This document shows positions 491-13,903 of a DNA stretch of 64,000 nt, one piece after another; position 1 is the first letter of the stretch; each line of letters begins with the position of its first letter. The DNA is from Dielma fastidiosa (GTDB lineage: Bacteria; Bacillota_I; Bacilli_A; Erysipelotrichales; Erysipelotrichaceae). The notes below the pieces were generated by a model that was not told the origin of the DNA, ran no database searches, and was given only the letters and a program-made list of their open reading frames with translations. The stretch lies in assembly GCF_000313565.1 (NCBI RefSeq), contig NZ_HE578928.1, forward strand, positions 1 through 64,000, written 5' to 3'. The position numbers and the translations under genes are program-made.

Positions 491-525
491 TTAAAAAAGA
501 TGAAACAGCATGATTTCATCTTTTT
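491..525 (-). terminator. rho-independent terminator overlapping the lipoprotein stop
   Basis: A perfect 12-bp stem (AAAAAGATGAAA, 494-505, with TTTCATCTTTTT, 514-525) has an 8-nt loop and a T run on the minus strand. The stop codon of the lipoprotein gene (524-526) lies at the edge of the stem. Confidence 0.85.
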
Positions 526-1636
526 AGTAATAGATACAATTGTAATGCAGCGGCAGATGCAGTTCCGTATAAATTCTTGGTGCTTCATAAACCAATTCAG
601 AATCAACTAGGATTGCCGGCACATCAGCTTTAACTCCCTGACCATGCATATCATACCCATATATATGATAGATTGGTATCGCATCATACTGATAATCCTG
701 ATAAGCATAGGTTAATTCAACGGCTCTGATATCCATTGGCAAATTTAATTCAGGATCTATAACCTGAAGCTGCACAACAGCTTCATATGGATCAAGCAGC
801 AAACCATTGCCGACATATTCACCATTCAGACAACTGATCGTAAAGCCTGTCAATCCTTTCTCATCAAATTCAACATCGATACGCTGGAAAGCCTGCGCAA
901 GTAACTGATCAGTCATAGAAGACATTCTTTCATTATATATATAGCCATGATATACATTTTGAAGCTTGCCATCAACAAGCTGGGTTTTCGTATCAACCTG
1001 GATGATTTGTTTTTCAAAATTCACAAGAACGTTTAGATATTGATTATAGAAAAACTCAGCTGCCGCCTTGATCCCCTGCTCACTATACTCATACACAAAG
1101 CCTTCATCATAAGGTACATTTAATTCCACCGCAATGCTGCCGTTTTGTTTAATCAAAAGATTTCCCTCTTTGAAAACAGCCAGCAATTCACTTTGGGTAC
1201 TCATTAATTCAGTTTCATGAGCAATTATAAAATCTTCAGCATGATAATCAAGCGGTTCATAATAGTCATAACTGATTATTTCCACATTTAAAGCGGCTGC
1301 CATTAAATCTGCTTTTATCCGCATCTGATCTTCATTCAGCGCAGTCTTATGATATACTGGCAAACTTGTCAGTGAATTGAAGTTATTAAGATTAAATTTG
1401 CTGTTTAAGGCTCTTTCAATATCAGCTTGACTCAGCAGGCGATCATCACTCATGCCAGGCTCATCATACAACGTGTACCCTGCAGAAAAATAACTGTATT
1501 CTAAATTATCTTCAACACCCGGAATCGGGTTTACCAATGCATTCTTAGGTGCTTCCACTTCTAATTTCCATTCCGGCTCAGCCGCAGTACAAGCACTAAG
1601 CAGAAATGCCAGCAATACTACACAAATTCCTCTCAT
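524..1636 (-). CDS. secreted lipoprotein of unknown function (370 aa)
   Basis: The start is the ATG at 1636, which has AAGGAG 6 nt upstream; an ATG 13 codons earlier lacks this. The N-terminus is a type II signal peptide ending in a lipobox (LLSAC), so the mature protein should be a membrane-anchored lipoprotein beginning at Cys16. The rest is acidic and rich in Tyr, with no motif I recognise and no further membrane segment. It is the last gene of a run of lipoprotein and membrane-protein genes (2542, 2995, 4252, 4722) and is followed by a strong terminator, so it probably closes that operon. Function unknown; a sensor or envelope-associated role is only a guess from context. Confidence 0.8.
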   Translation of the reverse strand: MRGICVVLLAFLLSACTAAEPEWKLEVEAPKNALVNPIPGVEDNLEYSYFSAGYTLYDEPGMSDDRLLSQADIERALNSKFNLNNFNSLTSLPVYHKTALNEDQMRIKADLMAAALNVEIISYDYYEPLDYHAEDFIIAHETELMSTQSELLAVFKEGNLLIKQNGSIAVELNVPYDEGFVYEYSEQGIKAAAEFFYNQYLNVLVNFEKQIIQVDTKTQLVDGKLQNVYHGYIYNERMSSMTDQLLAQAFQRIDVEFDEKGLTGFTISCLNGEYVGNGLLLDPYEAVVQLQVIDPELNLPMDIRAVELTYAYQDYQYDAIPIYHIYGYDMHGQGVKADVPAILVDSELVYEAPRIYTELHLPLHYNCIYY

Positions 1637-1762
1637 AAGAACTCCTTCTTTAATCATTATCTTATATTTTACCACAGATTTAAGAAGTTGAAACGGAAAG
1701 TTAGCATCATCATTTCATGTGTCACTCTGATTCATGTTTCAGTTGTATATAGAAAGCCTAGA

Positions 1763-2542
1763 TTACTGATATTGATAAAATATATAAGGATACATATGCG
1801 GATAACCAAATCCGACATTTTCAAAAATTTTCTCGCTATAAAAACAAAGATTCTTATTTTCATCAATATAATAGACTAAATCAGCCGCTGACAGATCCTC
1901 TGCATAACAGTTTTCCTGCTTATCATCGCAGACACCTAACCCTTTAGCTTGCAGCTGATCAAACAGGCTCGTCTCGATACTCTTTTCATCAAGCATATAT
2001 AAATCCAGCACTTCTTGATCATCAAGCAGCTTACCGCTGTACAGATCAATATTAAAGGTATTGAACTTTTTTTCAATTTCCCCATTCTCTTTATAATATG
2101 CGGAAAGCACAATTACAGAAAGGAAATCGCTGTTTTCTCGATATAGTGAGCGCGACACAAATATTGCCGGTTCACGATCACCAGCAAGATCATTGAGTGT
2201 ACTTAATTGAATTTCAATACTCAATTCCGCTTCCATCCTCTGGTTTAAGTCACTTATTTCCTGAGTATCTATATTAATATAAGGTATGTCCACAAACGCG
2301 CAACCATTTTGACATAATTGATTAAATGTTTCGTTTTCCAACTCTGTTCCGCACATTTCCGATTGTAACGTAGTATCGGTGAAGGCATACGGCCGGCTTT
2401 CATAAACCTTAGCGATTTTCTCAGCTGGTTCATTTTCCTTTAGCGTATCATTTTCCTTAATATCCGGTTTTGCTTCCTTAGGCTGACTCGAACAGCCAGC
2501 AAAAAGCAGCAGTGCCGATAAACATAATAATAATTTTTGCAT
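1763..2542 (-). CDS. lipoprotein with a possible DUF3298/RsiV-like domain (259 aa)
   Basis: The ATG at 2542 follows GGGGGGAG by 5 nt. A short signal peptide ends in the lipobox LFAGC-SS, followed by a charged Lys/Glu linker of about 30 residues. The central part has the layout of DUF3298/DUF4163 proteins (RsiV, PdaC N-domain): a stretch predicting 'xYxNIDTQEISDLNQR', then strands around 'LSVIVLSAYYKENG', then 'FNIDLYSGKLL' before a helix. That resemblance is by pattern only. In RsiV this domain senses lysozyme; here there is no anti-sigma helix, so only an extracellular ligand-binding role can be suggested. It lies between a membrane protein gene (2558-2995) and another lipoprotein gene. Confidence 0.65.
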   Translation of the reverse strand: MQKLLLCLSALLLFAGCSSQPKEAKPDIKENDTLKENEPAEKIAKVYESRPYAFTDTTLQSEMCGTELENETFNQLCQNGCAFVDIPYINIDTQEISDLNQRMEAELSIEIQLSTLNDLAGDREPAIFVSRSLYRENSDFLSVIVLSAYYKENGEIEKKFNTFNIDLYSGKLLDDQEVLDLYMLDEKSIETSLFDQLQAKGLGVCDDKQENCYAEDLSAADLVYYIDENKNLCFYSEKIFENVGFGYPHMYPYIFYQYQ

Positions 2543-2557
2543 ATTTTCTCCCCCCTC

Positions 2558-2995
2558 TTACTTATGCTTAATTAGCTCGCACATTGCGTAATATTTTTGC
2601 ACAACATAAGCAGCGGCACATGCGAAACCAAAGACTGCCATCTGAAAAATGACAAGATCTAAAATCGATGTCCATTGATTCAAAGCCATGCCAACCATCA
2701 CACACAAAAGCAATTCTCCCAAAATAATTTTCATGTGTTTAACGATAAAGTCACGCCATGTTATCTGCTTCGTATACAGCTTCTTGCACCAGATAGATTC
2801 ATATAACAGATAGGCAATGGAGAAGCCATTGATATAAACCTGAAGCTGGCTTATACCCGCCTGCGCCTTAGCAACAACGTCATAGCTTTGAGCAGTCATA
2901 AAATCATTGACCGCAGCACTCCTGAAGAATGTTAAAACAGCACCAATTAAAATGATTATAAAAACATCGGCTTCCTTTCTTATGATCGTTTTCAT
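2558..2995 (-). CDS. small integral membrane protein, unknown (145 aa)
   Basis: The ATG at 2995 has GGGGAG 7 nt upstream. Four hydrophobic segments are visible (about residues 12-30, 45-65, 88-105 and 110-130) with short charged loops, so it is a four-helix inner-membrane protein. The layout (four short TM helices) recalls the DUF3021 family often linked to two-component or ABC loci, but I cannot confirm this. It sits 15 nt upstream of the 2542 lipoprotein gene and 24 nt downstream of another lipoprotein, in the same direction, so co-transcription is likely. No catalytic motif is seen. Confidence 0.7.
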   Translation of the reverse strand: MKTIIRKEADVFIIILIGAVLTFFRSAAVNDFMTAQSYDVVAKAQAGISQLQVYINGFSIAYLLYESIWCKKLYTKQITWRDFIVKHMKIILGELLLCVMVGMALNQWTSILDLVIFQMAVFGFACAAAYVVQKYYAMCELIKHK

Positions 2996-3019
2996 TCCCT
3001 ATCTCCCCCTGCAATTCAC

Positions 3020-4252
3020 TTACTTTATGATCCAGAAACAATCAGCGGTATTAACCAGTATTTCATCATCATTCACTTTGATAATCCTGCTTCTAGTTTC
3101 AGGTAATTCATCAAATTCTATCTTTGCGCTCATAAGCAGCCCATCATTGACAGCCAGCATTGCATATGAAGCAGGAGTGCTTTTCGTAACATCAGACTGA
3201 TCTGAATGGGCAAGCATTTTACCCTCAGCCCATGAATCAACAGTATCATATCCATAAAAATAATCATCGTTTTTTACTTGTTTAAATTCACCGGTTTCGG
3301 TATCAAACAGCATATTATCAACTATTTTGATGCTTGTATCGATGGCATAAAGCGTATTTTCATCAACAAAACAGCTGAATTCCACTTCCTTATCACTTTG
3401 AAATTGTTTTAACTCAGACGTAGTATCGTCATAAATATAAATAGCCTGACGATCGTCAGAGTATATATATTTTTCAGATTTCTTGTTGTCATCCTCATAA
3501 GTAACCAGCTGCATATCCGGGGTCTGCTTGATGATTACCGCCAGCTTACTGCCATAGCTAAAGATTTTTTCATAAGCATTATATACGCCCATGAAATCCT
3601 CTGTATCCGCATTTTCAGAGATCAAATCTACTCTTTTATCGCCATCAAGCATAACGAAACGGGCATTATATGCACTATCATTTTCATAATCTTTCGTATA
3701 ATCCTCAGTAGCATAGAATACTTTCTCACCTGCTTTAATCAGCTGCGGAGAATGCATCTTTGCATTATATGAAATATAATCAGTCGTCAAGCCATGATCA
3801 ATTTCACGGCTGCCTTCTTCTGTTTCCATCATAACAGTGAAACGATTGTAATTATCAATTTCCGAAACTGGCTCAATTTTACTGTAAATAAGCGCATCCT
3901 CTGTATAAACAAATGAATTGATAACATAATTTCCTTCCAATTGCTTTAATACTTCAACTGTATGATCAGTCAAATCATATCTGCATAAGAAATTAACAAC
4001 ATTCTCATTGTCTAAATGAACAGCACTGTAATACAATTCATTATTTTCAACATACTGTGCCATCAAATAATCATGCTCGCCCATATTCAGTATTTCAGTA
4101 TCCAACAGTTTTTTGGCTGTATACACAGGCAGTTCAGTTTTAACTGATATCGGCTCTGCCTTAGCTGGCGGACTGTTTTCAAGCTTTTCTTTTGCACATG
4201 AGGTAAGCATTAGAAAACATAGGAAACATAATAACGATTTACCTATTTTCAT
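3020..4252 (-). CDS. lipoprotein, possibly beta-propeller-like (410 aa)
   Basis: The start is the ATG at 4252, 7 nt after GGGGG; the frame upstream offers only a TTG. The signal peptide is typical of lipoproteins, with the lipobox MLTSC. The mature part consists of repeated short strand-rich units in which Tyr/Phe-rich strands alternate with Asp/Asn turns (for example 'LYYSAVHLDNENVVNF', 'LYAIDTSIKIVDN'). This spacing resembles extracellular beta-propellers such as the DUF5050 or WD-like lipoproteins. There is no catalytic signature. It lies between two small membrane-protein genes in the same direction and is likely part of one operon with them. Confidence 0.7.
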   Translation of the reverse strand: MKIGKSLLCFLCFLMLTSCAKEKLENSPPAKAEPISVKTELPVYTAKKLLDTEILNMGEHDYLMAQYVENNELYYSAVHLDNENVVNFLCRYDLTDHTVEVLKQLEGNYVINSFVYTEDALIYSKIEPVSEIDNYNRFTVMMETEEGSREIDHGLTTDYISYNAKMHSPQLIKAGEKVFYATEDYTKDYENDSAYNARFVMLDGDKRVDLISENADTEDFMGVYNAYEKIFSYGSKLAVIIKQTPDMQLVTYEDDNKKSEKYIYSDDRQAIYIYDDTTSELKQFQSDKEVEFSCFVDENTLYAIDTSIKIVDNMLFDTETGEFKQVKNDDYFYGYDTVDSWAEGKMLAHSDQSDVTKSTPASYAMLAVNDGLLMSAKIEFDELPETRSRIIKVNDDEILVNTADCFWIIK

Positions 4253-4275
4253 CTTGATGCCCCCTTTCAATTTTA

Positions 4276-4722
4276 TTAACCTTGATATCTTTTTAAATTT
4301 ATACCGAGCAGCGTTATTCCCATGTTTGTCATTTCAATGCAAATAAACAACGCGATACTATTTCCAGTCTGAATAAATTGAAACTGATAAATAAGGAAAG
4401 CAGTAACAATCAGCATAACCACGGCTATTAAACTGATAATATATATCACAGCTTTGGGCAGCAGCAAACTCATTTCACTATATTTCTTCATCGGTTTAAA
4501 CATAACCAGATAGAAGATACAGCAAAGCACATATATTATAATGATTGAATATCTGGAGATAAGTTTCCTATATTCAGGAAATAACGAGCTTAAAGCACTA
4601 AATTCCATGTCAAAAACTGGATAGCCATAGATACCCAATTGACCTAAAACTATATTTATTAAAGTAAGAACACCAAAAAGTATAAACGCATCATTCAATG
4701 CACCGACTAGTTTTATTTTCAT
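4276..4722 (-). CDS. small integral membrane protein, unknown (148 aa)
   Basis: The ATG at 4722 has GAGGAG 4 nt upstream. Four hydrophobic segments are visible (about residues 8-30, 55-75, 85-110 and 118-140), with a short extracytoplasmic loop after the first. The topology is like that of the 145-aa protein at 2558-2995, and each is followed by a lipoprotein gene, so the membrane-protein/lipoprotein pair occurs twice in this stretch. A perfect palindrome (AGTCTGATCAGACT, 4742-4755) lies just upstream. No function can be given. Confidence 0.7.
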   Translation of the reverse strand: MKIKLVGALNDAFILFGVLTLINIVLGQLGIYGYPVFDMEFSALSSLFPEYRKLISRYSIIIIYVLCCIFYLVMFKPMKKYSEMSLLLPKAVIYIISLIAVVMLIVTAFLIYQFQFIQTGNSIALFICIEMTNMGITLLGINLKRYQG

Positions 4723-4741
4723 GATTCTCCTCTTTAAAAAT

Positions 4742-4755
4742 GAGTCTGATCAGAC
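4742..4755. repeat. 14-bp perfect palindrome AGTCTGATCAGACT
   Basis: The palindrome sits between the 36-aa ORF (stop at 4758) and the start of the gene at 4722. It could be an operator or, with the following ATTTTT on the minus strand, a weak terminator. The stem is only 5 bp if a 4-nt loop is allowed. Confidence 0.4.
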
Positions 4756-4757
4756 TT

Positions 4758-4868
4758 CTATTTTGACTTTTTTCTCAAAAATCGAATGATTTCATAAGCT
4801 GCTCTAAGCGCAACTACGCAGATAAGTAATAGTATTAATTCTCCCGTGCCAATACGTCCGTTAAACAT
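4758..4868 (-). CDS. 36-aa single-pass membrane microprotein
   Basis: The ATG at 4868 follows GGGAGG by 6 nt, a strong ribosome binding site, which makes translation likely in spite of the length. The product has a short N-terminus with 'RIGTGELI', one hydrophobic helix (about residues 10-22) and a basic tail (RFLRKKSK), so N-out/C-in insertion is expected. The 'G-x-x-E-L-I' start recalls the N-terminus of TatA/TatE, but the FG hinge and amphipathic helix are missing, so it should not be called Tat. It stands 174 bp after the ABC ATPase gene and before the 4722 gene. It could be an accessory subunit of the ABC exporter or a small secreted/membrane peptide. Confidence 0.6.
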   Translation of the reverse strand: MFNGRIGTGELILLLICVVALRAAYEIIRFLRKKSK

Positions 4869-5042
4869 AATTATTCCTCCCTTTGAGTTAGTACCCACAT
4901 TTCTTTAGATAATTTTATTATACAGTAATAAAGTAAAATATTCTACTAAAAGGGCTGTACGAATGTATTACAGGTCTGTGGAGGAATTATCTCCTATATA
5001 AACCCTGTAAGACTAATTTTTAACTTTAATCCCATGTTATTC

Positions 5043-5678
5043 CTATTCACAAATATAGAGCTTCTGATCTTTAATTAACAAGATTACATCTGCCAGATCT
5101 TCCACATCATCAATATGATGACTAGTAAATATTAAAATTTTATTTGGCTGTCTGATGAATTTATTTAATATATCCTTAACAACTTTTACCGAATTTTCAT
5201 CTAATGCATTAAATGGCTCATCCAAAATAAGGATATCCGGATTTTCCATTAAAGCCTGCGCAAGTCTAAGTTTCTGCTTCATGCCTAAAGAATAGGTTTT
5301 ATATTTCTTATTCAAAGCTTGATCAATCCCAAGCTGTCGGCATAAATTATGTATATCTTCATCGGTACATATATTCTTTATTTCGGCCAATGCTTTTAAA
5401 TTTTCATAACCTGTCATTGTTTTGACAAATTCAGGAGCATTGATCGATACACCCGCATTGGGTATAAAATCATATTTTACCCCCAGCTTTTCACCATTAA
5501 TATGCACAGTCCCCTGATCAGGTAAACTAAACCCGCAGATTATCTTCAACAGCACACTTTTACCACAGCCATTGATACCGGTTATCGCATAACTGGTGTT
5601 TTCCTTGAAGTCAAAATTGATATTGTCAAATATGAGATTATCCTTATACTTCTTTTCAATATTACGAAGATTAATCAT
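5043..5678 (-). CDS. ABC transporter ATP-binding protein (211 aa)
   Basis: The start is the ATG at 5678, 6 nt after AGAGGTG; a GTG at 5687 is also possible. It is a complete ABC ATPase: Walker A GINGCGKS (34-41), signature SLGMKQ (130-135), Walker B ILILDEP (149-155) and switch His in TSHH (185-188). The signature S-L-G-M-K-Q is typical of ABC-2 type drug/lantibiotic exporters (BcrA/NatA/CcmA group). It is the last gene of a four-gene operon with three membrane proteins (7811, 6997, 6354) and overlaps the stop of the one before it by 8 nt. It should power export or immunity for an unidentified substrate; a regulator with peptide-binding architecture lies directly upstream of the operon. Confidence 0.9.
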   Translation of the reverse strand: MINLRNIEKKYKDNLIFDNINFDFKENTSYAITGINGCGKSVLLKIICGFSLPDQGTVHINGEKLGVKYDFIPNAGVSINAPEFVKTMTGYENLKALAEIKNICTDEDIHNLCRQLGIDQALNKKYKTYSLGMKQKLRLAQALMENPDILILDEPFNALDENSVKVVKDILNKFIRQPNKILIFTSHHIDDVEDLADVILLIKDQKLYICE

Positions 5679-6354
5679 TTTGTTCACCTCTGAATTTTAA
5701 TGTAATGATGCTGCTTATCACCAAAACAACGATTAAGATACCAATTTGAATACCGTTTCCAATCATCGACTGTGGAAAATGTATGATTAAATTAAAATCA
5801 CCCATACACTCAATCAGCGCAATCGTTGATAGACCTATTAACAAATAATAAGAAATAAAATTAACTTTACATTTATATTGTATGATGACGATCAATTCCA
5901 CAAACACCAATAAGAAATATACGAGACGGACTACGATCAGCAGCAGCATGACAGCATCACTAGCTGAAGGAAAGCTGCCAATAAAACACCAAGTCCAAAA
6001 TAAGATGCTGACACATAAATCAATGGCAATTTGAATGCTGCTTCTTATTATTGATTTTTGTATATGAAGCATAAAGCTTTTCATTGATCCATAACGAATC
6101 ATATGAAGCGATCCCAGCTCATTAAATACTAAGCTGAATTGTTCTAGGAACAAAATCACTGAAAGAATAATTACCAACAACAAACATGCGATCAAAACAA
6201 CATTGATTGTACTGTAATGATACTCCTGCAACACCTTGGGAAAGAGGAAGAATAGTTTTAAGCTGTCCACATAAGGAAGATTTTTAAACTGCATACCAAT
6301 ATAACCAAAGGAAATCGCGGGCAGCATGAATAATAATAGATATTTTTTCCACAT
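5671..6354 (-). CDS. ABC-exporter membrane subunit, unknown family (227 aa)
   Basis: Six hydrophobic segments spread over 227 residues, with no soluble domain, fit an ABC-2 type permease. The start ATG at 6354 lies 1 nt after the stop of the preceding membrane-protein gene, so translation is probably coupled; no strong Shine-Dalgarno is seen. The C-terminus overlaps the start of the ATPase gene. Its position directly beside the ATPase, in the same operon, is the main evidence for function. Three dissimilar membrane proteins share a single ATPase here, as in lantibiotic-immunity or gliding-type exporters (LanFEG), but I see no sequence match that settles which. Confidence 0.7.
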   Translation of the reverse strand: MWKKYLLLFMLPAISFGYIGMQFKNLPYVDSLKLFFLFPKVLQEYHYSTINVVLIACLLLVIILSVILFLEQFSLVFNELGSLHMIRYGSMKSFMLHIQKSIIRSSIQIAIDLCVSILFWTWCFIGSFPSASDAVMLLLIVVRLVYFLLVFVELIVIIQYKCKVNFISYYLLIGLSTIALIECMGDFNLIIHFPQSMIGNGIQIGILIVVLVISSIITLKFRGEQND

Positions 6355-6355
6355 A

Positions 6356-6997
6356 TCAATCGCCCATTTCCTTGAATCTAAGGGAAGAACACCAATAAAC
6401 CAATAAATATACTAAAATAAGCACCGATGTCATTTGGAAGTCATTAAGTTCTCTCATATATAAGGGATAAGCCATAAAAAGATACGGCCGTAAAGTATCT
6501 GAATACATAGCAAACAACATTTGAAGAATGAATAGAATAATCAGCGTTATTTCATAAACCGTTCGCTTACCGATATAGGTGCTGTAAATATAGAAACAAT
6601 TAAACAAAACAAACAACATACCACACCACCATAAATAATACAGCAGCAAATCAAAGTCTAATTTTACTGACAAGATTTCATGTAAGAAGTACATTGTAAT
6701 AAACAAATATGCTAAGTAAATCACCGTCAGACCCAATTGTTCAATAAATCGTTTTTTGAAGTACTGCGTGAAATTTTTATATCTCACAATCTCTGTTTTA
6801 TTAAATTCATATGTAGAAAACAATAAGGCAAAATAGAATGGCTGTATCACAAAATTCATCCACAAAGTCAGAAATAAATTCTCTGTATAATACAATGAAT
6901 AGTAATAACAAAGGGCAAAATTTAAAACTAATGAGCCGCCTATAATCAGGCCCCATTTTGTGAGTGGAATCCTAAGTAAGACTTTTTTCTTTCCCAT
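6356..6997 (-). CDS. ABC-exporter membrane subunit, unknown family (213 aa)
   Basis: A 213-residue protein with about six hydrophobic helices and short basic cytoplasmic loops (for example the 'KKRF' and 'RYK' positions). Its start (6997) lies inside the end of the preceding permease gene (26-nt overlap), so it is translationally coupled. The downstream gene begins 1 nt after its stop. It is distinct in sequence from its neighbours but similar in size and topology to the 227-aa subunit; the two may form a heterodimeric permease with the ATPase at 5043-5678. No other function is visible. Confidence 0.7.
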   Translation of the reverse strand: MGKKKVLLRIPLTKWGLIIGGSLVLNFALCYYYSLYYTENLFLTLWMNFVIQPFYFALLFSTYEFNKTEIVRYKNFTQYFKKRFIEQLGLTVIYLAYLFITMYFLHEILSVKLDFDLLLYYLWWCGMLFVLFNCFYIYSTYIGKRTVYEITLIILFILQMLFAMYSDTLRPYLFMAYPLYMRELNDFQMTSVLILVYLLVYWCSSLRFKEMGD

Positions 6998-7811
6998 AAC
7001 ACAGTCTCGCTAGTATTAATATCATTGAAATAATAAATGGTATGATTAAAGCCAGAGGAAGCATTAACGTATTCAAATCATTAAATGATGACGCCGCCAT
7101 AATAAAGCTTGGTGCAAAGTAATACCTTAAATCATAATCAGGCAGCAGCATCATAAGAGCGCTAAAACCTAAATAATAAAGTGTTGGTATAAAAATCACC
7201 ATGAATTTTTTATTGGTCCATAATGAAATTCCTAAACTGAACAGTCCATATACAAAAGGTACTAGTATATATTTAGGTATACCTTCCATAAAATAAAACA
7301 AATACCGATGGTCTCGATACAGCCCATTCCCCAAAATATCTCTAAACATTTCTCGATAACCATTAACCTCAACGTTGAGTTCACTTGAAATTCTAAAAAA
7401 CACAACACCCACAACGTAATAAATCATATACCCTGCAAAACAAGTAGCTGCCGCAATTAAAGCATATTTAAGTATAGTTTTAATATAGAATTTAAAAGAT
7501 GATTTATATCTTATAGCAAGTTGATCGAAAAAGCCGCGTTTCTCATCTATAAAACGTAATACCGGAAGTGATGAGAAAATCGGTAATAAGAACTGCATCG
7601 GCAATGCTCCCCAAATCATCATATAATCATAGTTAAACTCAGAATTCATGTATTCCCATTTATCCGGCCATCCTTCAGTAGGAACAAAGAAAAATAAATT
7701 TTGGAAGTATCCGAATGTAGTGCCGTAGTAAAGAAACATTACCAAAAACATACTGACGGCAGTTATAACTGTAATTTTATTAAAAGCTCTTTTCTTAGTC
7801 AATAACTTCAT
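6972..7811 (-). CDS. ABC-exporter membrane subunit, first gene of exporter operon (279 aa)
   Basis: The start is the ATG at 7811, 7 nt after GGGGG; the in-frame TTG two codons upstream lies too close to it. One TM helix near the N-terminus (residues 15-33) is followed by a long extracytoplasmic loop of about 40 residues, then five further helices, the pattern of an ABC-2 permease (ABC2_membrane type). The gene heads the exporter operon. A 13-bp operator-like site (7906-7918) and a weak promoter lie just upstream, between it and the end of the regulator gene. It is likely the activated target of that regulator. Confidence 0.7.
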   Translation of the reverse strand: MKLLTKKRAFNKITVITAVSMFLVMFLYYGTTFGYFQNLFFFVPTEGWPDKWEYMNSEFNYDYMMIWGALPMQFLLPIFSSLPVLRFIDEKRGFFDQLAIRYKSSFKFYIKTILKYALIAAATCFAGYMIYYVVGVVFFRISSELNVEVNGYREMFRDILGNGLYRDHRYLFYFMEGIPKYILVPFVYGLFSLGISLWTNKKFMVIFIPTLYYLGFSALMMLLPDYDLRYYFAPSFIMAASSFNDLNTLMLPLALIIPFIISMILILARLCYGKEKSLT

Positions 7812-7875: not shown

Positions 7876-7904
7876 ATAATAGTATGAATGAACACATTTA
7901 TGTT
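7876..7904 (-). promoter_or_regulatory. candidate activator-dependent promoter of the exporter operon
   Basis: The minus strand shows a -10-like TATTAT (7881-7876), with TACTAT in an overlapping register. With a 17-nt spacer the -35 would be AACATA (7904-7899), far from consensus. A poor -35 directly next to an operator is what a positively regulated promoter looks like. Confidence 0.4.
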
Positions 7905-7905
7905 T

Positions 7906-7918
7906 TGTTACGTCACAA
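7906..7918. promoter_or_regulatory. operator site 1a (TGTTACGTCACAA)
   Basis: This 13-bp sequence occurs identically at 9374-9386, upstream of the regulator's own promoter. The core is a near palindrome, TGT-TA-CG-TC-ACA. It abuts the stop codon of regulator 1 (7919) and precedes the ABC exporter operon. It is proposed as the binding site of the XRE-TPR regulator encoded between the two copies. Confidence 0.6.
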
Positions 7919-9169
7919 CTAGCTGTTTTGAAGTAAATTTACTTTCATTTTAAGATATTTTATAGCGCTGATTTCATCATTGTTACGATCTAATAAATCT
8001 AAAACAATATCAATATAAAAAATACAACGTTCATATTGATCTGAATCATATAATTGATCTACCACTTTCATCGCCAAATTTAAACAAGCTTTAGTAGGCT
8101 TTCCCTCACCAATTTTCAAAAGCATAACAAACAATCTAAAATAAATACCATATTTACTATTTTCTTTTAATTGTTGATTTTGATTTATTATTTCTTGAGC
8201 CGAATTATAATTATTAAGCTTAAGATTACACCATATGCCATATAAGACAGCAAGAGGATGTTTAGGCTCCTTCATTTTTGCTTCATCTAAATATTCTAAA
8301 GCTTCTTTATATCTTTTCGCAAGCATCATTGTCCAGCACATATTCCGATAATCCATAGCTATAATATCATTACCAAAGCCTAATTGTTCGCTGCCGCACA
8401 AACTTTTTTTAAACATTTCGATTGCTTCATCATATTGTCTAGTAGCTTTCAAAACTAATGCAAACTCAGAAAGGCAAAAACTAGCCCTTCGATAAGATGC
8501 ATGCTTCGAAAAAAGAACATTCGCTTTTTCCAAGCTTGCCGCTGACTGTAATAGTTTTCTAACACTTGTATAAGAACTAGTTAAATGATAGTAAATCATG
8601 GCAATTATTTTTTCATCTGATGTCAAATTCAAAGCCTTTTCCTGCCAAACTATTGCCTTTTTATATTCTTTTTTTATTCTAAATTTCAAACCGATATAGT
8701 CATAAAGCATAGCATTACATTCAGAATCATTTTTAAAATATTCCAATAGACATTCTTCTAGTTTTTCGGCATTATCTAAATCGTTATTTATAATTTTTAA
8801 TATATACTCCATTAATAAAATCTTAGCATTATTAAAGTCTAATTCAGAACCTATGACACCATTGACCTGCTTATATTTACTAATTTTTAACTCAAAGTAA
8901 TCAAGATTTTGAGTATGGTAAAATAAAGAATCAGAAAAATCAGCAAATAATTCATTTATTTCCTCAAATACTTTTCCTAAATCATTAAAATTGATATTTA
9001 ATGATTTTTCTATAATATTTACTGCATTTTCAGTTGGTATTTCTTCACCGCGCTCATACTTACCCAAACGCATATAACTGATACCAGTCATTTTTGATAA
9101 ATCCCTTAGAGTTAAGTGATTGAACTTACGTATTAAACGTATTTCTTTTCCAATATTCTCTTTCCTCAT
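7919..9169 (-). CDS. XRE-TPR transcriptional regulator 1, RRNPP-like (416 aa)
   Basis: Residues 5-60 form an XRE-type helix-turn-helix with the pattern 'IRLIRKFNHLTLRDLSKM...ISYMRLGKYERGEEIP'. The remaining ~350 residues are helical with TPR-like pairs (for example 'YKKAIVWQEKALNL', 'YDEAIEMFKKSL', 'YKEALEYLDEAKMKEP'). HTH plus a TPR domain at about 400 residues is the architecture of RRNPP peptide-sensing regulators (NprR, PlcR, AimR, Rgg). That ligand type is inferred, not seen. It is a paralogue of the regulator at 12467-13699, conserved over the whole length. The start ATG at 9169 has only a weak Shine-Dalgarno. The gene lies between two copies of one 13-bp operator, pointing to autoregulation and control of the exporter operon. 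Confidence 0.85.
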   Translation of the reverse strand: MRKENIGKEIRLIRKFNHLTLRDLSKMTGISYMRLGKYERGEEIPTENAVNIIEKSLNINFNDLGKVFEEINELFADFSDSLFYHTQNLDYFELKISKYKQVNGVIGSELDFNNAKILLMEYILKIINNDLDNAEKLEECLLEYFKNDSECNAMLYDYIGLKFRIKKEYKKAIVWQEKALNLTSDEKIIAMIYYHLTSSYTSVRKLLQSAASLEKANVLFSKHASYRRASFCLSEFALVLKATRQYDEAIEMFKKSLCGSEQLGFGNDIIAMDYRNMCWTMMLAKRYKEALEYLDEAKMKEPKHPLAVLYGIWCNLKLNNYNSAQEIINQNQQLKENSKYGIYFRLFVMLLKIGEGKPTKACLNLAMKVVDQLYDSDQYERCIFYIDIVLDLLDRNNDEISAIKYLKMKVNLLQNS

Positions 9170-9202
9170 TTACTTTAACAATGATAACTAACATATAATA
9201 AT

Positions 9203-9277
9203 TTATACTCTGTAATACTTGCAGATGTAGTTCTCCCCAATCTCATACTGAATTACCAGTTTATCTATCTTAACCAT
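9203..9277 (-). CDS. possible 24-aa leader peptide
   Basis: An ATG at 9277 opens a 24-codon frame ending at 9203 ('KIDKLVIQYEIGENY' within it). It overlaps the stop of the 14-codon frame upstream, so it could be reached by coupled translation. It has no Shine-Dalgarno of its own. The codon pattern looks protein-like, but at this length chance is a real alternative. It would be co-transcribed with regulator 1. Confidence 0.25.
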   Translation of the reverse strand: MVKIDKLVIQYEIGENYICKYYRV

Positions 9278-9314
9278 ACATCTGCAAAACAGAATATAAA
9301 TTATTATATACCAC
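9270..9314 (-). CDS. possible 14-aa leader peptide, GTG start
   Basis: A strong ribosome binding site (AGGGAGG, 6 nt upstream) precedes a GTG that opens a 14-codon frame (MVYNNLYSVLQMYG). No other start uses that site. The frame lies in the transcript of regulator 1, directly after its promoter. It may be a peptide ligand precursor, a regulatory uORF, or the relic of a longer gene. It carries no signal peptide, unlike the peptide gene at 13739-13903. Confidence 0.35.
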   Translation of the reverse strand: MVYNNLYSVLQMYG

Positions 9315-9338
9315 TGTTATCCTCCCTCTTTGTTTGAT

Positions 9339-9367
9339 ATTATAACGATTATCAGAACATATGTCTA
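9339..9367 (-). promoter_or_regulatory. promoter of regulator 1
   Basis: On the minus strand, -35 TAGACA (9367-9362) and -10 TATAAT (9344-9339) are separated by 17 nt. The operator at 9374-9386 ends 6 nt upstream of the -35. The leader to the regulator ATG is about 160 nt. Confidence 0.65.
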
Positions 9368-9373
9368 CAATTC

Positions 9374-9386
9374 TGTTACGTCACAA
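9374..9386. promoter_or_regulatory. operator site 1b (TGTTACGTCACAA)
   Basis: It is identical over 13 bp to the site at 7906-7918. Its place 6 nt upstream of the -35 box matches an activator that contacts RNA polymerase, as with Rgg-type regulators. The near-palindromic core suits a dimeric HTH protein. Confidence 0.6.
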
Positions 9387-9510
9387 AAGCTTATTTTATA
9401 AGAATAGTATGAATTAATTGTATCAATTAAATGTCCGTATTGTATAAAGTAATCCTATTATTAAATCTATAATAGCTTTCAGGTAATTGATCAATAATCT
9501 GAAAAGTTTC

Positions 9511-11144: not shown

Positions 11145-11879
11145 CTAATACTTATACTCAGTACTTTTATAGAAATTATTTCCATTATCGGTACTGCTCA
11201 ATATTTCAATTAAACGATTATTTTCATCATATACATATTGTAGCCTAATTAATTCTGACCCGTCACTCTTAAAAGTTATTTGTGTATTTAGGAGTTCATC
11301 TTTGTATGTTGAAATAATATTACTATCCACTATACCATTTAGATATGAAGTTTCTTGAATACATTTTTCGGAACTATCATACTCATAAGTTGTTTTATAA
11401 TTATCAACCATAACTGTGACTAATTTACCAGTTTTGTCAAAAGTATAAAGTGAAACTATAGGTTCTTCACCAATCACTTCATAAGCACTTCTCACGACAT
11501 TTCCATTGTCATCATATTCATGAGTACGTGTTTCAATTAATTCATTGTCTAGATTATAGGTATCTATCCTAGTCAATTGTTTCATATCATCGTATGTGTA
11601 ATTACTATACCCAGTTGACCTTATCGACTTCACAACAACATCATCCTCATAGACATATGTTATTTCATCATTTTCACTTGTTTTCTTTATCAGTTGATTA
11701 TTGTTGTTATACTCGAATTTATCTATAGAAATTATTTTTCCATCGTTACTATATTGGACTTCCTCAATTGGGTTTAGCGATAATTCATTACTAACAACAT
11801 CATTGCTACTATTAGTATTGGAGCATCCAACACACATACTCAACAATACAACCAAAATACTTTTATCGATTTTCTTCAA
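11145..11879 (-). CDS. YD-repeat-like lipoprotein (244 aa)
   Basis: The start is uncertain. The ATG at 11888 sits directly on the GGAG of the ribosome binding site, so the TTG at 11879, 9 nt after it, is the better start. A signal peptide ends in the lipobox SMCVGC. The mature chain is made of repeated units of about 20 residues of the form Y-x-Y-D-x-x-x-Q/N-L-x-x (for example 'YNNNNQLIKK', 'YTYDDMKQLTRI', 'HEYDDNGNVVRS', 'YVYDENNRLIEI'). These are the YD/RHS repeats of Rhs and teneurin-like beta-barrels, here as a small stand-alone shell without toxin or core domain. It follows the secreted-protein gene at 11905 and probably shares its promoter. Confidence 0.75.
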   Translation of the reverse strand: MKKIDKSILVVLLSMCVGCSNTNSSNDVVSNELSLNPIEEVQYSNDGKIISIDKFEYNNNNQLIKKTSENDEITYVYEDDVVVKSIRSTGYSNYTYDDMKQLTRIDTYNLDNELIETRTHEYDDNGNVVRSAYEVIGEEPIVSLYTFDKTGKLVTVMVDNYKTTYEYDSSEKCIQETSYLNGIVDSNIISTYKDELLNTQITFKSDGSELIRLQYVYDENNRLIEILSSTDNGNNFYKSTEYKY

Positions 11880-11904
11880 TAGTATCATCTCCTAATTTAC
11901 AATT

Positions 11905-12339
11905 TTAAACAGTTACAGTTTGCATTGTGTAACTATACCCACCACCTATAGGACAATCAAAGTAAGGTTGTAAAAATTTATAAGAAATTTTTACCGTAAC
12001 GCTATCCTTGTTTAATACATAAGTTACATCTGTTATCTCTAAATCCCATTCAGCAGTTAAAGAATCAATGGTTACATCTAAGCTTGCATCAGTTACAGTG
12101 TAACTTGATCCGTTATGAGTAATATCATAAGAGCCTTTAACTCTAAAAGTTACACTACCATTGCATCCAGCCTTTTGCAGATTATATTTAAATGTTTTGT
12201 TGACGTTAACTGTATTAACAGTAGCATATGGAATAATTTCATCATCAGATGCTTTAATCTCTACTGAATTAACTGCAAAAATAGAAAAGAATAGAGAAAA
12301 TACTGTGAATAATGATAATAAGATTTTTTTCATTTTCAT
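11905..12339 (-). CDS. secreted protein of unknown function (144 aa)
   Basis: The ATG at 12339 follows AGGAGG by 5 nt. A classic type I signal peptide (basic start, hydrophobic core to about residue 25, likely cut near VNSVEIKA-S or just before) leads to a mature domain of about 115 residues. That domain is strand-rich, Thr/Val/Tyr-rich and has two Cys (in 'KAGCNGS' and 'FDCPIGG') that may form a disulfide. It fits a small secreted beta-sandwich. No family is recognised. It is the first gene downstream of regulator 2, whose proposed operator and a good promoter lie in between, so it is the likely main target of that regulator. Confidence 0.75.
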   Translation of the reverse strand: MKMKKILLSLFTVFSLFFSIFAVNSVEIKASDDEIIPYATVNTVNVNKTFKYNLQKAGCNGSVTFRVKGSYDITHNGSSYTVTDASLDVTIDSLTAEWDLEITDVTYVLNKDSVTVKISYKFLQPYFDCPIGGGYSYTMQTVTV

Positions 12340-12466: not shown

Positions 12467-13699
12467 TTAGAAATTTCTAGTTAAATTTACCTTCATTTCA
12501 AGATATTTTATTTTTTCTAGCTCATTCCCACTTCTATTTAATAAATCTAAAGCGATGTCAATATAAAAATTAACTCGTTCATATTCCTCGCCTTGCTTAA
12601 AATTTTCGATAATTTTAGTTACTAAATTTACTGATTTTGCAGAAGGCACTCCCTCTCTGCACTTCACTAACAGATCAAACAATTCATAAAAACTACCATA
12701 TTCTACATTATTATGCAAATCAATATTAGCCTCAATCCATCGTTCTGCTTCTTGATAGTTCTGCAATTTATAGTTACACCAGATTGCATAAAGAACTGTA
12801 AAACCATGCTTCGGCTCAATCTCTATTGCTTCTTCAAGATATTCCAGTCCTCTTTTATAATCCCCCGCTAAAATCATTGTCCAACACATGTTACGATAAA
12901 CCTTCGCATAGAGTGATTCTGAACAGTCAATCATTTCTAAGGCTTTTATTGCAATGTTAAAATAAGAAATCGATTCTTTATATTGAAAATTAGATTTTAG
13001 TAAAAGAGCCTGTTCTATAAAACAATATGCTACCCTTTTTAGAGAACCATACTCAGAAAAAATTCTGTGCGCTTCTTCAATACAAAACATCGCTTTTGCT
13101 ATATTTCCAATATCTTTATAGGCAATACTTGAATGCAAACATAACATTGCTTTATTTTTTCTATTTATTGTCATTGACATAGCTTTTTCAAAATAGTATA
13201 TCGCTTTATCATAATGCTTTTCTATTCTATGAGATAGCCCTATATATTGATAAATAATGGCTTTACATTCAAAATCACTGTTAAAATATTCTAAAAGACT
13301 AGATTCCATCAATCTAGCTTTTTCAAAATTCTCATCTAAAACTAATATTATATATTCAATTAATTGAGCTTTTCCAAATGAAAAATTTATAATTGAATTT
13401 ATTTTACCATTTGTTATCCTTGTCTTAAATAAATCATTACTATCATCATGATAGAATAAAGAATCTAAAAATTCATTAAACATAATATCTATTTTTTTTG
13501 CCATTTCAAAATATTCATGAAAGTTCATATTCAAAACTTTCTCTATTTTTGAAATAGCTTCATCAGTTGGCATTTCTTTCCCACCTTCGAATTTTCCTAG
13601 GCGACTATATGGTATTCCCGTTTTTTGTCCTAATTCTCTAAGTGTGAAACCACGATATTTTCTAATTAATCTTAATACCTTCCCAATATTTTGATCCAT
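12467..13699 (-). CDS. XRE-TPR transcriptional regulator 2, RRNPP-like (410 aa)
   Basis: A paralogue of the regulator at 7919-9169, alignable from 'NIGKxxRLIRK' to the C-terminal 'IxxIKYLxMKVNL'. Residues 4-55 form the XRE helix-turn-helix ('LRLIRKYRGFTLRELGQK...IPYSRLGKFEGGKEMP'), and the rest is a TPR-like helical array. The size is close to that of NprR. The ATG at 13699 is chosen because it aligns with the paralogue's start; a TTG nine codons upstream is the alternative, and Shine-Dalgarno support is weak. The gene follows a 54-aa secreted peptide gene (13739-13903) in the same unit. A good guess is that the processed peptide, or a host-derived peptide, is its ligand; nothing in the sequence proves this. 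Confidence 0.85.
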   Translation of the reverse strand: MDQNIGKVLRLIRKYRGFTLRELGQKTGIPYSRLGKFEGGKEMPTDEAISKIEKVLNMNFHEYFEMAKKIDIMFNEFLDSLFYHDDSNDLFKTRITNGKINSIINFSFGKAQLIEYIILVLDENFEKARLMESSLLEYFNSDFECKAIIYQYIGLSHRIEKHYDKAIYYFEKAMSMTINRKNKAMLCLHSSIAYKDIGNIAKAMFCIEEAHRIFSEYGSLKRVAYCFIEQALLLKSNFQYKESISYFNIAIKALEMIDCSESLYAKVYRNMCWTMILAGDYKRGLEYLEEAIEIEPKHGFTVLYAIWCNYKLQNYQEAERWIEANIDLHNNVEYGSFYELFDLLVKCREGVPSAKSVNLVTKIIENFKQGEEYERVNFYIDIALDLLNRSGNELEKIKYLEMKVNLTRNF

Positions 13700-13720: not shown

Positions 13721-13740
13721 AGCCAATAAAACTATTGGCT
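13721..13740. repeat. inverted repeat AGCCAATA...TATTGGCT between peptide and regulator 2
   Basis: An 8-bp perfect stem with a 4-nt loop overlaps the stop codon of the peptide gene and precedes the regulator start. There is no T tract, so it is unlikely to terminate. It could lower downstream translation or protect the upstream peptide mRNA. Confidence 0.5.
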
Positions 13741-13903
13741 AGTTAGGTGCATGTTCATCATTCAATAATGTTACATGATAACACTCATGTTTACAATTGA
13801 TGCCATTCTCTCCACATTCTTCAGTATGCACATGAGTGCAGCTAAAGGTGCATAGACCAAACATCAATAGTGCAGACATTGCCATTGATATTATTTTTTT
13901 CAT
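13739..13903 (-). CDS. 54-aa secreted Cys/His-rich peptide
   Basis: The ATG at 13903 has GGGGAGGAAAAG upstream, a strong ribosome binding site, and a consensus promoter precedes it. Residues 1-21 form a signal peptide (MKK start, hydrophobic core, 'FGLCTFSC'), which could be cut by signal peptidase I or, less clearly, lipidated at Cys22. The mature part carries a pattern of Cys and His (C-T-H-V-H-T-E-E-C-G, then C-K-H-E-C-Y-H), as in the 'CTHxHxxxCG' units of larger Firmicutes surface proteins, and may bind metal or form disulfides. It is the first gene of the unit with regulator 2. Inference: a signalling-peptide precursor or small secreted effector. Confidence 0.65.
   Translation of the reverse strand: MKKIISMAMSALLMFGLCTFSCTHVHTEECGENGINCKHECYHVTLLNDEHAPN

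Follow-up and report, generated by a model that had tools for sequence, protein, structure and literature searches.

What does an ATP-binding cassette (ABC) exporter followed by lipoproteins do directly behind a peptide-type regulator, when no gene for a signal pro-peptide was found beside that regulator? The question arises in the 64,000-nt window of Dielma fastidiosa analysed here (NCBI RefSeq assembly GCF_000313565.1, contig NZ_HE578928.1, positions 1 to 64,000 of the forward strand), which begins at base 1 of its contig in a 3.6 Mb genome of 95 contigs. The minus strand carries, from 9169 to 524, the regulator REG1, the permeases perm1, perm2 and perm3, an ABC ATPase, a 36-aa peptide and then a tail of small membrane proteins and lipoproteins. 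With moderate confidence, we read REG1 as a signal-less receptor of the RRNPP type (an "eavesdropper") that would govern an immunity-like exporter, much like the pneumococcal D39 scb locus. The regulator and exporter genes are:

7919..9169, minus strand: REG1, regulator with a helix-turn-helix (HTH) domain and tetratricopeptide repeats (TPR), predicted RRNPP-type receptor
6972..7811, minus strand: perm1, 279 aa, ABC-2/type V exporter permease by its model and structure matches; found in other genomes
6356..6997, minus strand: perm2, 213-aa membrane protein; place and size conserved in relatives, absent from others
5671..6354, minus strand: perm3, 227-aa membrane protein; place and size conserved in relatives
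5043..5678, minus strand: ABC ATPase, 211 aa; PF00005, E 1.7e-28

REG1 carries an N-terminal HTH_3 domain (PF01381, 29.5 bits, cut-off 23), and TPR was also matched in Pfam. RRNPP receptors except Rap have an N-terminal HTH DNA-binding domain, and an adjacent pro-peptide of their own is usual, not universal. The REG1 profile aligned to NprR over profile positions 63-384 (E 2e-9). With the REG1 model (predicted local distance difference test score, pLDDT, 90.5), Foldseek returned Rap or NprR at all of ranks 1-14, and a second structure comparison gave Rap or NprR for the 11 top-scoring PDB entries (Z 23.3-28.1), with AimR at 18.9-22.1. As modelled, REG1 has the build and fold of an RRNPP receptor (Rap/NprR), which bears out the first-pass annotation where it spoke of a peptide-type regulator.

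The genome holds at least four REG1 paralogues (5 of 19 candidates scored), with REG2 in the window and REG3-REG5 elsewhere, and the best match outside the genome shows 29% identity. REG2 and its small upstream neighbour are:

12467..13699, minus strand: REG2, REG1 paralogue (44%)
13739..13903, minus strand: pro-peptide before REG2, 54 aa, secreted-type; none found before REG1

Each of REG2-REG5 lies directly behind an open reading frame (ORF) for such a pro-peptide, 52-56 aa long, with a hydrophobic N-terminus, the core CxHxHxxxCG....CxH and then a variable tail. A profile built from nine pro-peptides matched in 12 of 309 genomes, at 19 places. At 18 of these, nine of which had built the profile, an ORF of 360-475 aa follows immediately on the same strand (interrupted by an inserted ORF at L111); 16 of the 18 ORFs match REG1-REG5 (BLASTP E ≤0.001), four of the 16 being REG2-REG5 themselves, and those at L118 and L121 do not. 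The nineteenth hit (L115) is inside an unrelated gene. No Pfam or NCBIfam model matched the pro-peptides above cut-off. The pairing of pro-peptide and receptor recurs in other Erysipelotrichales, and among the papers listed in a literature check none joined RRNPP with this order.

At REG1 the picture was different. Four pro-peptides were found in the genome with 21 of 45 candidates scored, all beside REG2-REG5 and none at REG1. A six-frame search of the whole window found only that of REG2, and a six-frame search of 9140-9420, short frames included, gave no trace of a pro-peptide; the same search scored 100 bits in the REG2 region. The lack of a sibling-type pro-peptide at REG1 bars the description "complete receptor-signal pair"; it does not bar "receptor". 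Receptors of the RRNPP family that have no pro-peptide are known and termed eavesdroppers (PMC9765709). We infer that a REG2-type signal may be the first candidate for REG1, because REG2 is its closest match, also over the C-terminal half of the TPR domain (47% both for residues 241-340 and for 341-416). REG1 is like NprR/NprX and Rap/Phr in its predicted TPR fold, like NprR in its N-terminal HTH, and like both in that its paralogues have adjacent secreted-type pro-peptides. It is unlike them in that no REG1 pro-peptide was found, and the sibling pro-peptides precede the regulator and have a Cys/His core (HxHxxxCG...CxH).

The regions before REG1 and before perm1 share an operator-like site. 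The sites and signals considered are:

9373..9386, minus strand: operator-like site before REG1, TTGTGACGTAACAG; 13-mer in common with 7905-7918
7905..7918, minus strand: operator-like near-palindrome before perm1, TTGTGACGTAACAA; begins immediately past the REG1 stop codon
12452..12465, minus strand: palindrome after REG2, TTGTATCGATACAA, perfect; ahead of a secreted-protein/lipoprotein pair
9339..9367, minus strand: promoter-like match, TAGACA-17-TATAAT, 11 of 12; best of the region
9270..9314, minus strand: 14-codon ORF, MVYNNLYSVLQMYG, GTG start, GGGAGG before; possible leaderless signal peptide or leader ORF

The 13-bp word TTGTGACGTAACA is identical upstream of REG1 and between the REG1 stop codon and perm1, a sharing reached in 10 of 1000 resamplings, and both genomic copies of its exact 12-mer core TGTGACGTAACA are at these two sites. 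Taken as a palindrome, the REG1 downstream site was reached in 14 of 1000 resamplings. The corresponding counts per 1000 for the paralogues were 2 (REG2 downstream), 22 (REG3 upstream), 41 (REG5 downstream), 80 (REG3 downstream), 147 (REG4 upstream), 282 (REG2 upstream) and 853 (REG5 upstream). Shared words of REG2, REG3 and REG5 were at chance (816, 814 and 450 of 1000), as was an imperfect copy of the REG2 palindrome before the REG2 pro-peptide, and the CG-centred near-palindromes of REG3-REG5 were weak or at chance level. From these patterns we read the sites as candidate operators of one receptor family, with a central CG. The promoter-like match before REG1 is the best among 61 in the region, where shuffled sequence gave a mean of 54. 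Another word, the 12-bp ATTCATACTATT at 9403-9414 and 7878-7889, is also common to the regions before REG1 and perm1, and its copies flank the operator-like sites on opposite sides.

The exporter genes were next compared with known families and with other genomes. In the ATPase, the Walker A (GINGCGKS), signature (SLGMKQK) and Walker B (LILDEP) motifs are all intact. The best NCBIfam model for this protein was TIGR03740, the lantibiotic-protection subfamily, at 146.2 bits, which is under half of the cut-off of 309.75; TIGR03608 gave 92.8 bits (cut-off 254.85), and no gene of the run matched TIGR01654. The "E-loop" of LanF, a term not used in PMC5786555, was tried and rejected, the equivalent position holding Asn in 23 of the 24 ATPases of the cassettes and Asp in the other. 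The gene for perm1 was found in at least 22 of 315 genomes of the order, the own genome included, at no fewer than 28 places and in at least 9 of 79 genera, all lower bounds with seven candidates scored per genome. Across a phylum sample it was present in 4 of 304 genomes, again counting its own, one copy being a 53-residue fragment with stops, and it reaches another family of the class (G479). Relatives keep the gene order perm1-perm2-perm3-ATPase, or have perm2 and perm3 fused as one ORF of 433-440 aa, or have one further permease only. The exporter is a conserved cassette. The permease and small protein of one relative (L045) had no match in 72,556 plasmid records, and no viral contigs carrying perm2 were found. 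In a further relative (G030, L015 7606-10392) the cassette lies between rplL/methyltransferase and rpoB, judged by eye, and the cassette of the window lies a few kb behind an apparent rpoC; exporter cassettes may have a hot spot in the rpl-rpo region.

The one permease modelled was perm1 (19 sequences, pLDDT 83.7, predicted template modelling score 0.85). Foldseek gave no match with E <0.001, and PmtD and NosY took its best ranks, with probabilities of 0.97-1.00 among the first six. In VIA-align, NosY scored Z 15.0 (root-mean-square deviation 3.7, 220 aligned) and PmtD Z 12.1, on a scale where helical models may reach Z 13 through arrangement alone. Nearly all of the 50 VIA-align entries listed were type V transporters of the ABCG, ABCA, CcmB, NosY or PmtD kind. 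We assign the fold because this list is consistent and an ATPase adjoins: the perm1 model fits the ABC-2/type V exporter fold, which is what the fold search proposed in the first-pass annotation returned when run for this protein. A sequence search of solved structures with perm1 gave nothing meaningful. The likeness to the type V exporters PmtCD and NosFY thus lies in the perm1 fold and those two scores, at only ~10-15% sequence identity, and three different permeases set the cassette apart from them.

In 14 of the 28 places the gene immediately before perm1 encodes a small protein whose start, by eye, resembles a signal peptide (profile E <1e-5). The profile was built from 11 of these 14 loci; L035, L037 and L040 were outside it, L040 being close to one inside. 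The proteins are 97-156 aa long as first called and end approximately in YxLxARRExxxDPxTxVxGxWxP, and the relative in the other family (G479) also has one, in two pieces of one frame with a stop between. The 14 misses were the window, G020, G021, G030, G136, G157, G119, three places in one genus (L028-L030), L043, two places in G285 and L036; at both places in G285 the copy is degenerate (E 0.046) and one of the two is truncated by a contig end, and L036 is a fragment at a contig end. None of six relatives' small proteins reached a Pfam or NCBIfam cut-off (best Pfam E 0.025), and neither these six nor any gene of the run matched the lactococcin 972 family, which we take to be PF09683. In two genomes (L056 and L057) such cassettes lie ~2-7 kb from a 719-aa protein and an ATPase; the L056 copies reached 100 bits with TIGR01654 and 229 bits with TIGR03608, both under cut-off, and resemble lactococcin-972-type transporters, and the 714-aa protein beside the L054 cassette, in the position that the 719-aa one has at L056, had no NCBIfam match.

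As judged from gene order, the small protein and cassette together would form a bacteriocin-locus layout, which the window does not have. The layout of the relatives, a Sec-type secreted small protein and then transporter genes, is like that of lactococcin 972 loci; unlike those loci, the small protein falls outside the bacteriocin's Pfam family, the run has no TIGR01654 and its ATPase is far under TIGR03608. Because a small secreted-type protein gene often directly precedes the exporter in relatives, export or immunity is favoured over housekeeping. The export, immunity or envelope-stress role proposed in the first-pass annotation gains from this neighbour, which the window itself lacks, and from the exporter-type fold of perm1.

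Behind the ATPase the run continues with the microprotein and five tail genes:

4758..4868, minus strand: microprotein, 36 aa, single transmembrane (TM) segment; ORF with a Shine-Dalgarno-like sequence (GGGAGG) ahead of its start; no Pfam or NCBIfam family
4276..4722, minus strand: 148-aa membrane protein, 4 TM segments (crude count from hydropathy)
3020..4252, minus strand: 410-aa lipoprotein, lipobox LTSC
2558..2995, minus strand: 145-aa membrane protein, 3 TM segments by the same count; unlike the 148-aa protein
1763..2542, minus strand: 259-aa lipoprotein, lipobox FAGC
524..1636, minus strand: 370-aa lipoprotein, lipobox LSAC; 126 nt behind the rest of the run

The first-pass annotation was mostly right in what it observed here and partly right in how it interpreted it. 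ORF layout and gaps (-26, 1, -8, 174, 35, 23, 24, 15 and 126 nt, in order) confirmed a contiguous minus-strand run from 7811 to 524 behind the regulator, and the ATPase, three permeases and 36-aa membrane microprotein are present as it said. Most run genes are preceded by a Shine-Dalgarno-like sequence. Its "two more lipoproteins" at the end reduce to one after the pairs, as there are three in total, and its four-helix membrane proteins hold for the 148-aa and fail for the 145-aa protein. That none of the genes matches a family well known to it stood for the three permeases, both small membrane proteins, all three lipoproteins and the microprotein, none of which reached a Pfam or NCBIfam cut-off, and failed for the ATPase, which matches PF00005. 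The idea of repeated pairs was rejected, since in BLASTP the 148-aa and 145-aa proteins are not alike and the 259-aa lipoprotein is unlike the 410-aa and 370-aa ones; what repeats is the layout only. Co-conservation of the set as a whole, whose co-occurrence in other genomes had been proposed as a check, was not supported; what other genomes share is the exporter cassette and, independently of it, the family of the regulator.

The tail is lineage-specific. Single searches with the 410-aa lipoprotein, the 370-aa lipoprotein and the 148-aa membrane protein, three of the five tail proteins, gave no match in other genomes of a 125-genome family sample. A joint search with all five in 309 genomes was underpowered, as it scored two candidates for each genome; beyond the own genome it yielded two weak matches, and one of these lay, by eye, in a protein of another kind. 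The 259-aa lipoprotein has a distant relative in one other genome (L066, 26%), with no exporter alongside. Within the own genome, the 410-aa lipoprotein has one paralogue (27% identity), and the 370-aa lipoprotein has paralogues that are adjacent to each other, longer and secreted-type (L131 4594-8967). In an all-against-all phmmer comparison, the run joined only the 410-aa lipoprotein with its paralogue and the 259-aa one with the L066 lipoprotein. The run genes go beyond chance, since the exporter cassette recurs and distant relatives exist for the 410-, 370- and 259-aa lipoproteins. The 410-aa paralogue (L130 2499-6790) lies behind two small membrane proteins and adjoins genes for a LytTR-type regulator and a histidine kinase (by eye), at a locus without the exporter, so that the layout of small membrane protein and lipoprotein recurs beside a second signalling gene pair. 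The L130 genes are possibly another signalling-linked set of membrane proteins and lipoproteins.

The closest known system is the D39-type scb locus. There, the ComR-type ScbR, its binding site and the immunity/transport genes are kept and the bacteriocin and signal genes are gone; ScbR, without a signal gene of its own, answers a peptide of S. pseudopneumoniae and drives scbBC, and the immunity role of ScbBC is only predicted (PMC11796350). The window is like D39 scb in having an RRNPP-type receptor immediately upstream of predicted immunity/transport genes, a candidate binding site for that receptor and no signal or bacteriocin gene found. It differs in the receptor, which is ComR-type in ScbR and Rap/NprR-like in REG1, with peptide activation shown for ScbR and presumed for REG1, and in the transporter, where ScbBC is of lactococcin 972 type and the window has a three-permease ABC-2 exporter with lipoproteins. 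The cassette is also like LanFEG with LanI (PMC5786555), with an ATPase nearest to a lantibiotic-protection model, several permease genes and lipoproteins in the run. Unlike LanFEG, its ATPase stays under the family cut-off, it has three permeases where LanFEG has two (LanE and LanG) and some relatives have one besides perm1, and its lipoproteins are of no known family.

In the mechanism that we propose, REG1 would be a cytoplasmic RRNPP-type peptide receptor and DNA-binding regulator whose own pro-peptide gene was lost or never present. A short peptide pheromone from the sibling systems of the same cell, or from neighbours, would be taken up via an oligopeptide permease and bind REG1, which would act at two copies of the near-palindrome TTGTGACGTAACA(A), one ahead of its own gene and one ahead of the exporter operon, presumably to drive expression of the operon. 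The operon, if transcribed as a unit, would yield three permeases and one ATPase that form a type V (ABC-2) exporter, together with the microprotein, two membrane proteins and three lipoproteins. Much as with LanFEG and LanI, the exporter would most likely rid the membrane of a secreted bacteriocin-like protein or peptide, and the lipoproteins may protect the cell surface.

Several results weigh against this mechanism. With one mismatch, the 12-mer core had 9 genome matches and its reversed control 21, so the looser copies carry no meaning, and the REG1 upstream site taken alone as a palindrome was no better than chance (177 of 1000). In the REG1 profile search generic or designed TPR proteins outscored NprR, over shorter stretches, and in the second structure comparison the eukaryotic TPR protein LGN stood at rank 12 with Z 23.2, equal to the eleventh entry. 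The pairing of REG1 with an exporter was seen once, as none of the 21 other exporter neighbourhoods examined has a REG1-like ORF. With 5 of 19 and 21 of 45 candidates scored, the genome scans may have overlooked another receptor or a distant signal gene. The small-protein profile found no match in the window genome, with all 23 candidates scored and no positive control, and 14 of the 28 exporter places are without a small secreted-type neighbour. This last count would also suit a self-standing transporter, for housekeeping or for lipids and envelope stress, with the receptor there by accident or for envelope upkeep; the type V fold serves lipids and cofactors too, and the rplL-rpoB position of one relative's cassette fits as well. 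We consider such a transporter unlikely in view of the patchy presence of the cassette, the 13-bp site in common with the receptor gene and the recurrent neighbourhood with small secreted-type proteins.

The 14-codon ORF bears on the receptor side of the same question. It is the only ORF between the promoter-like site and REG1, and it could be REG1's own leaderless signal. The two would then be an ordinary self-sensing pair, and the peptide may leave the cell through the exporter. Directly ahead of the ORF stand the shared site, the best promoter-like match and the GGGAGG, which speak for this, and leaderless peptides beside RRNPP receptors are documented, but they mostly have 8-10 very hydrophobic residues (PMC10518010), whereas the product here has 14, of mixed character. 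The ORF also has no match to the paralogues' signal profile, and a self-sensing pair seems improbable to us. Equally relevant are the 174-nt and 126-nt gaps, wide enough for the run to be split into two or three transcription units: the exporter, the genes from the microprotein to the 259-aa lipoprotein, and the 370-aa lipoprotein may be independent and share a place, not a job. Three lineage-specific tail genes with no co-conservation with the exporter, and the exporter-free locus of the 410-aa paralogue with its two small membrane proteins beside LytTR and histidine kinase genes, point the same way. The tight order on one strand argues for a single unit, and neither gap has a terminator-like minus-strand match; a structured attenuator in the 174-nt gap was rejected as well, its folding being no better than that of shuffles. 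On balance we find independent units doubtful.

If REG1 is an eavesdropping receptor as we prefer to read it, a wider reading can be offered, tentatively and as a possibility only. The window may represent an undescribed RRNPP branch of Erysipelotrichales with Cys/His-core pro-peptides, the core possibly metal- or disulfide-stabilised and the variable tail serving as an address; one genome has no fewer than five of the receptors and four of the signals recognised. The signal-less receptor would eavesdrop on the other systems and so drive an exporter and a lipoprotein shield against a new class of Sec-secreted bacteriocin-like proteins, small proteins of this kind elsewhere travelling with this exporter. 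The exporter and the receptor are of known kinds; what is new is that they occur together, along with the family of pro-peptides and that of the small secreted-type proteins. If the wider reading is true, RRNPP quorum sensing would extend to the order Erysipelotrichales and gain a new family of pro-peptides, and one cell would hold a natural network of several receptors and several signals, suited to tests of eavesdropping. The uncharacterised family of secreted small proteins with its dedicated exporter may then be a bacteriocin class of these Firmicutes. On the main reading, a gut-type bacterium may use signals that originate elsewhere to switch on protection against secreted antibacterial proteins.

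The remaining features of the window were of minor bearing. Anti-phage defence was rejected, as PADLOC matched only the ATPase and REG1 among ten window proteins, both in their generic ATPase and HTH parts. The only known RNA families in the window were a T-box and an L10 leader, both outside the run. A likeness of the microprotein to TatA found no support in Pfam. Downstream of REG2-REG5 come, by eye, genes for secreted-type proteins, lipoproteins or small membrane proteins. In the window, the pro-peptide at 13739-13903, REG2, its palindrome, a 144-aa secreted-type protein (11905-12339) and a lipoprotein (11145-11888) with RHS-type repeats appear to form a second complete unit. At the other end, a C-terminal catalase remnant (254-478; Catalase-rel, 31 bits) adjoins the end of the run at a distance of 46 nt, with no space for the remaining gene, and is perhaps an old recombination scar.

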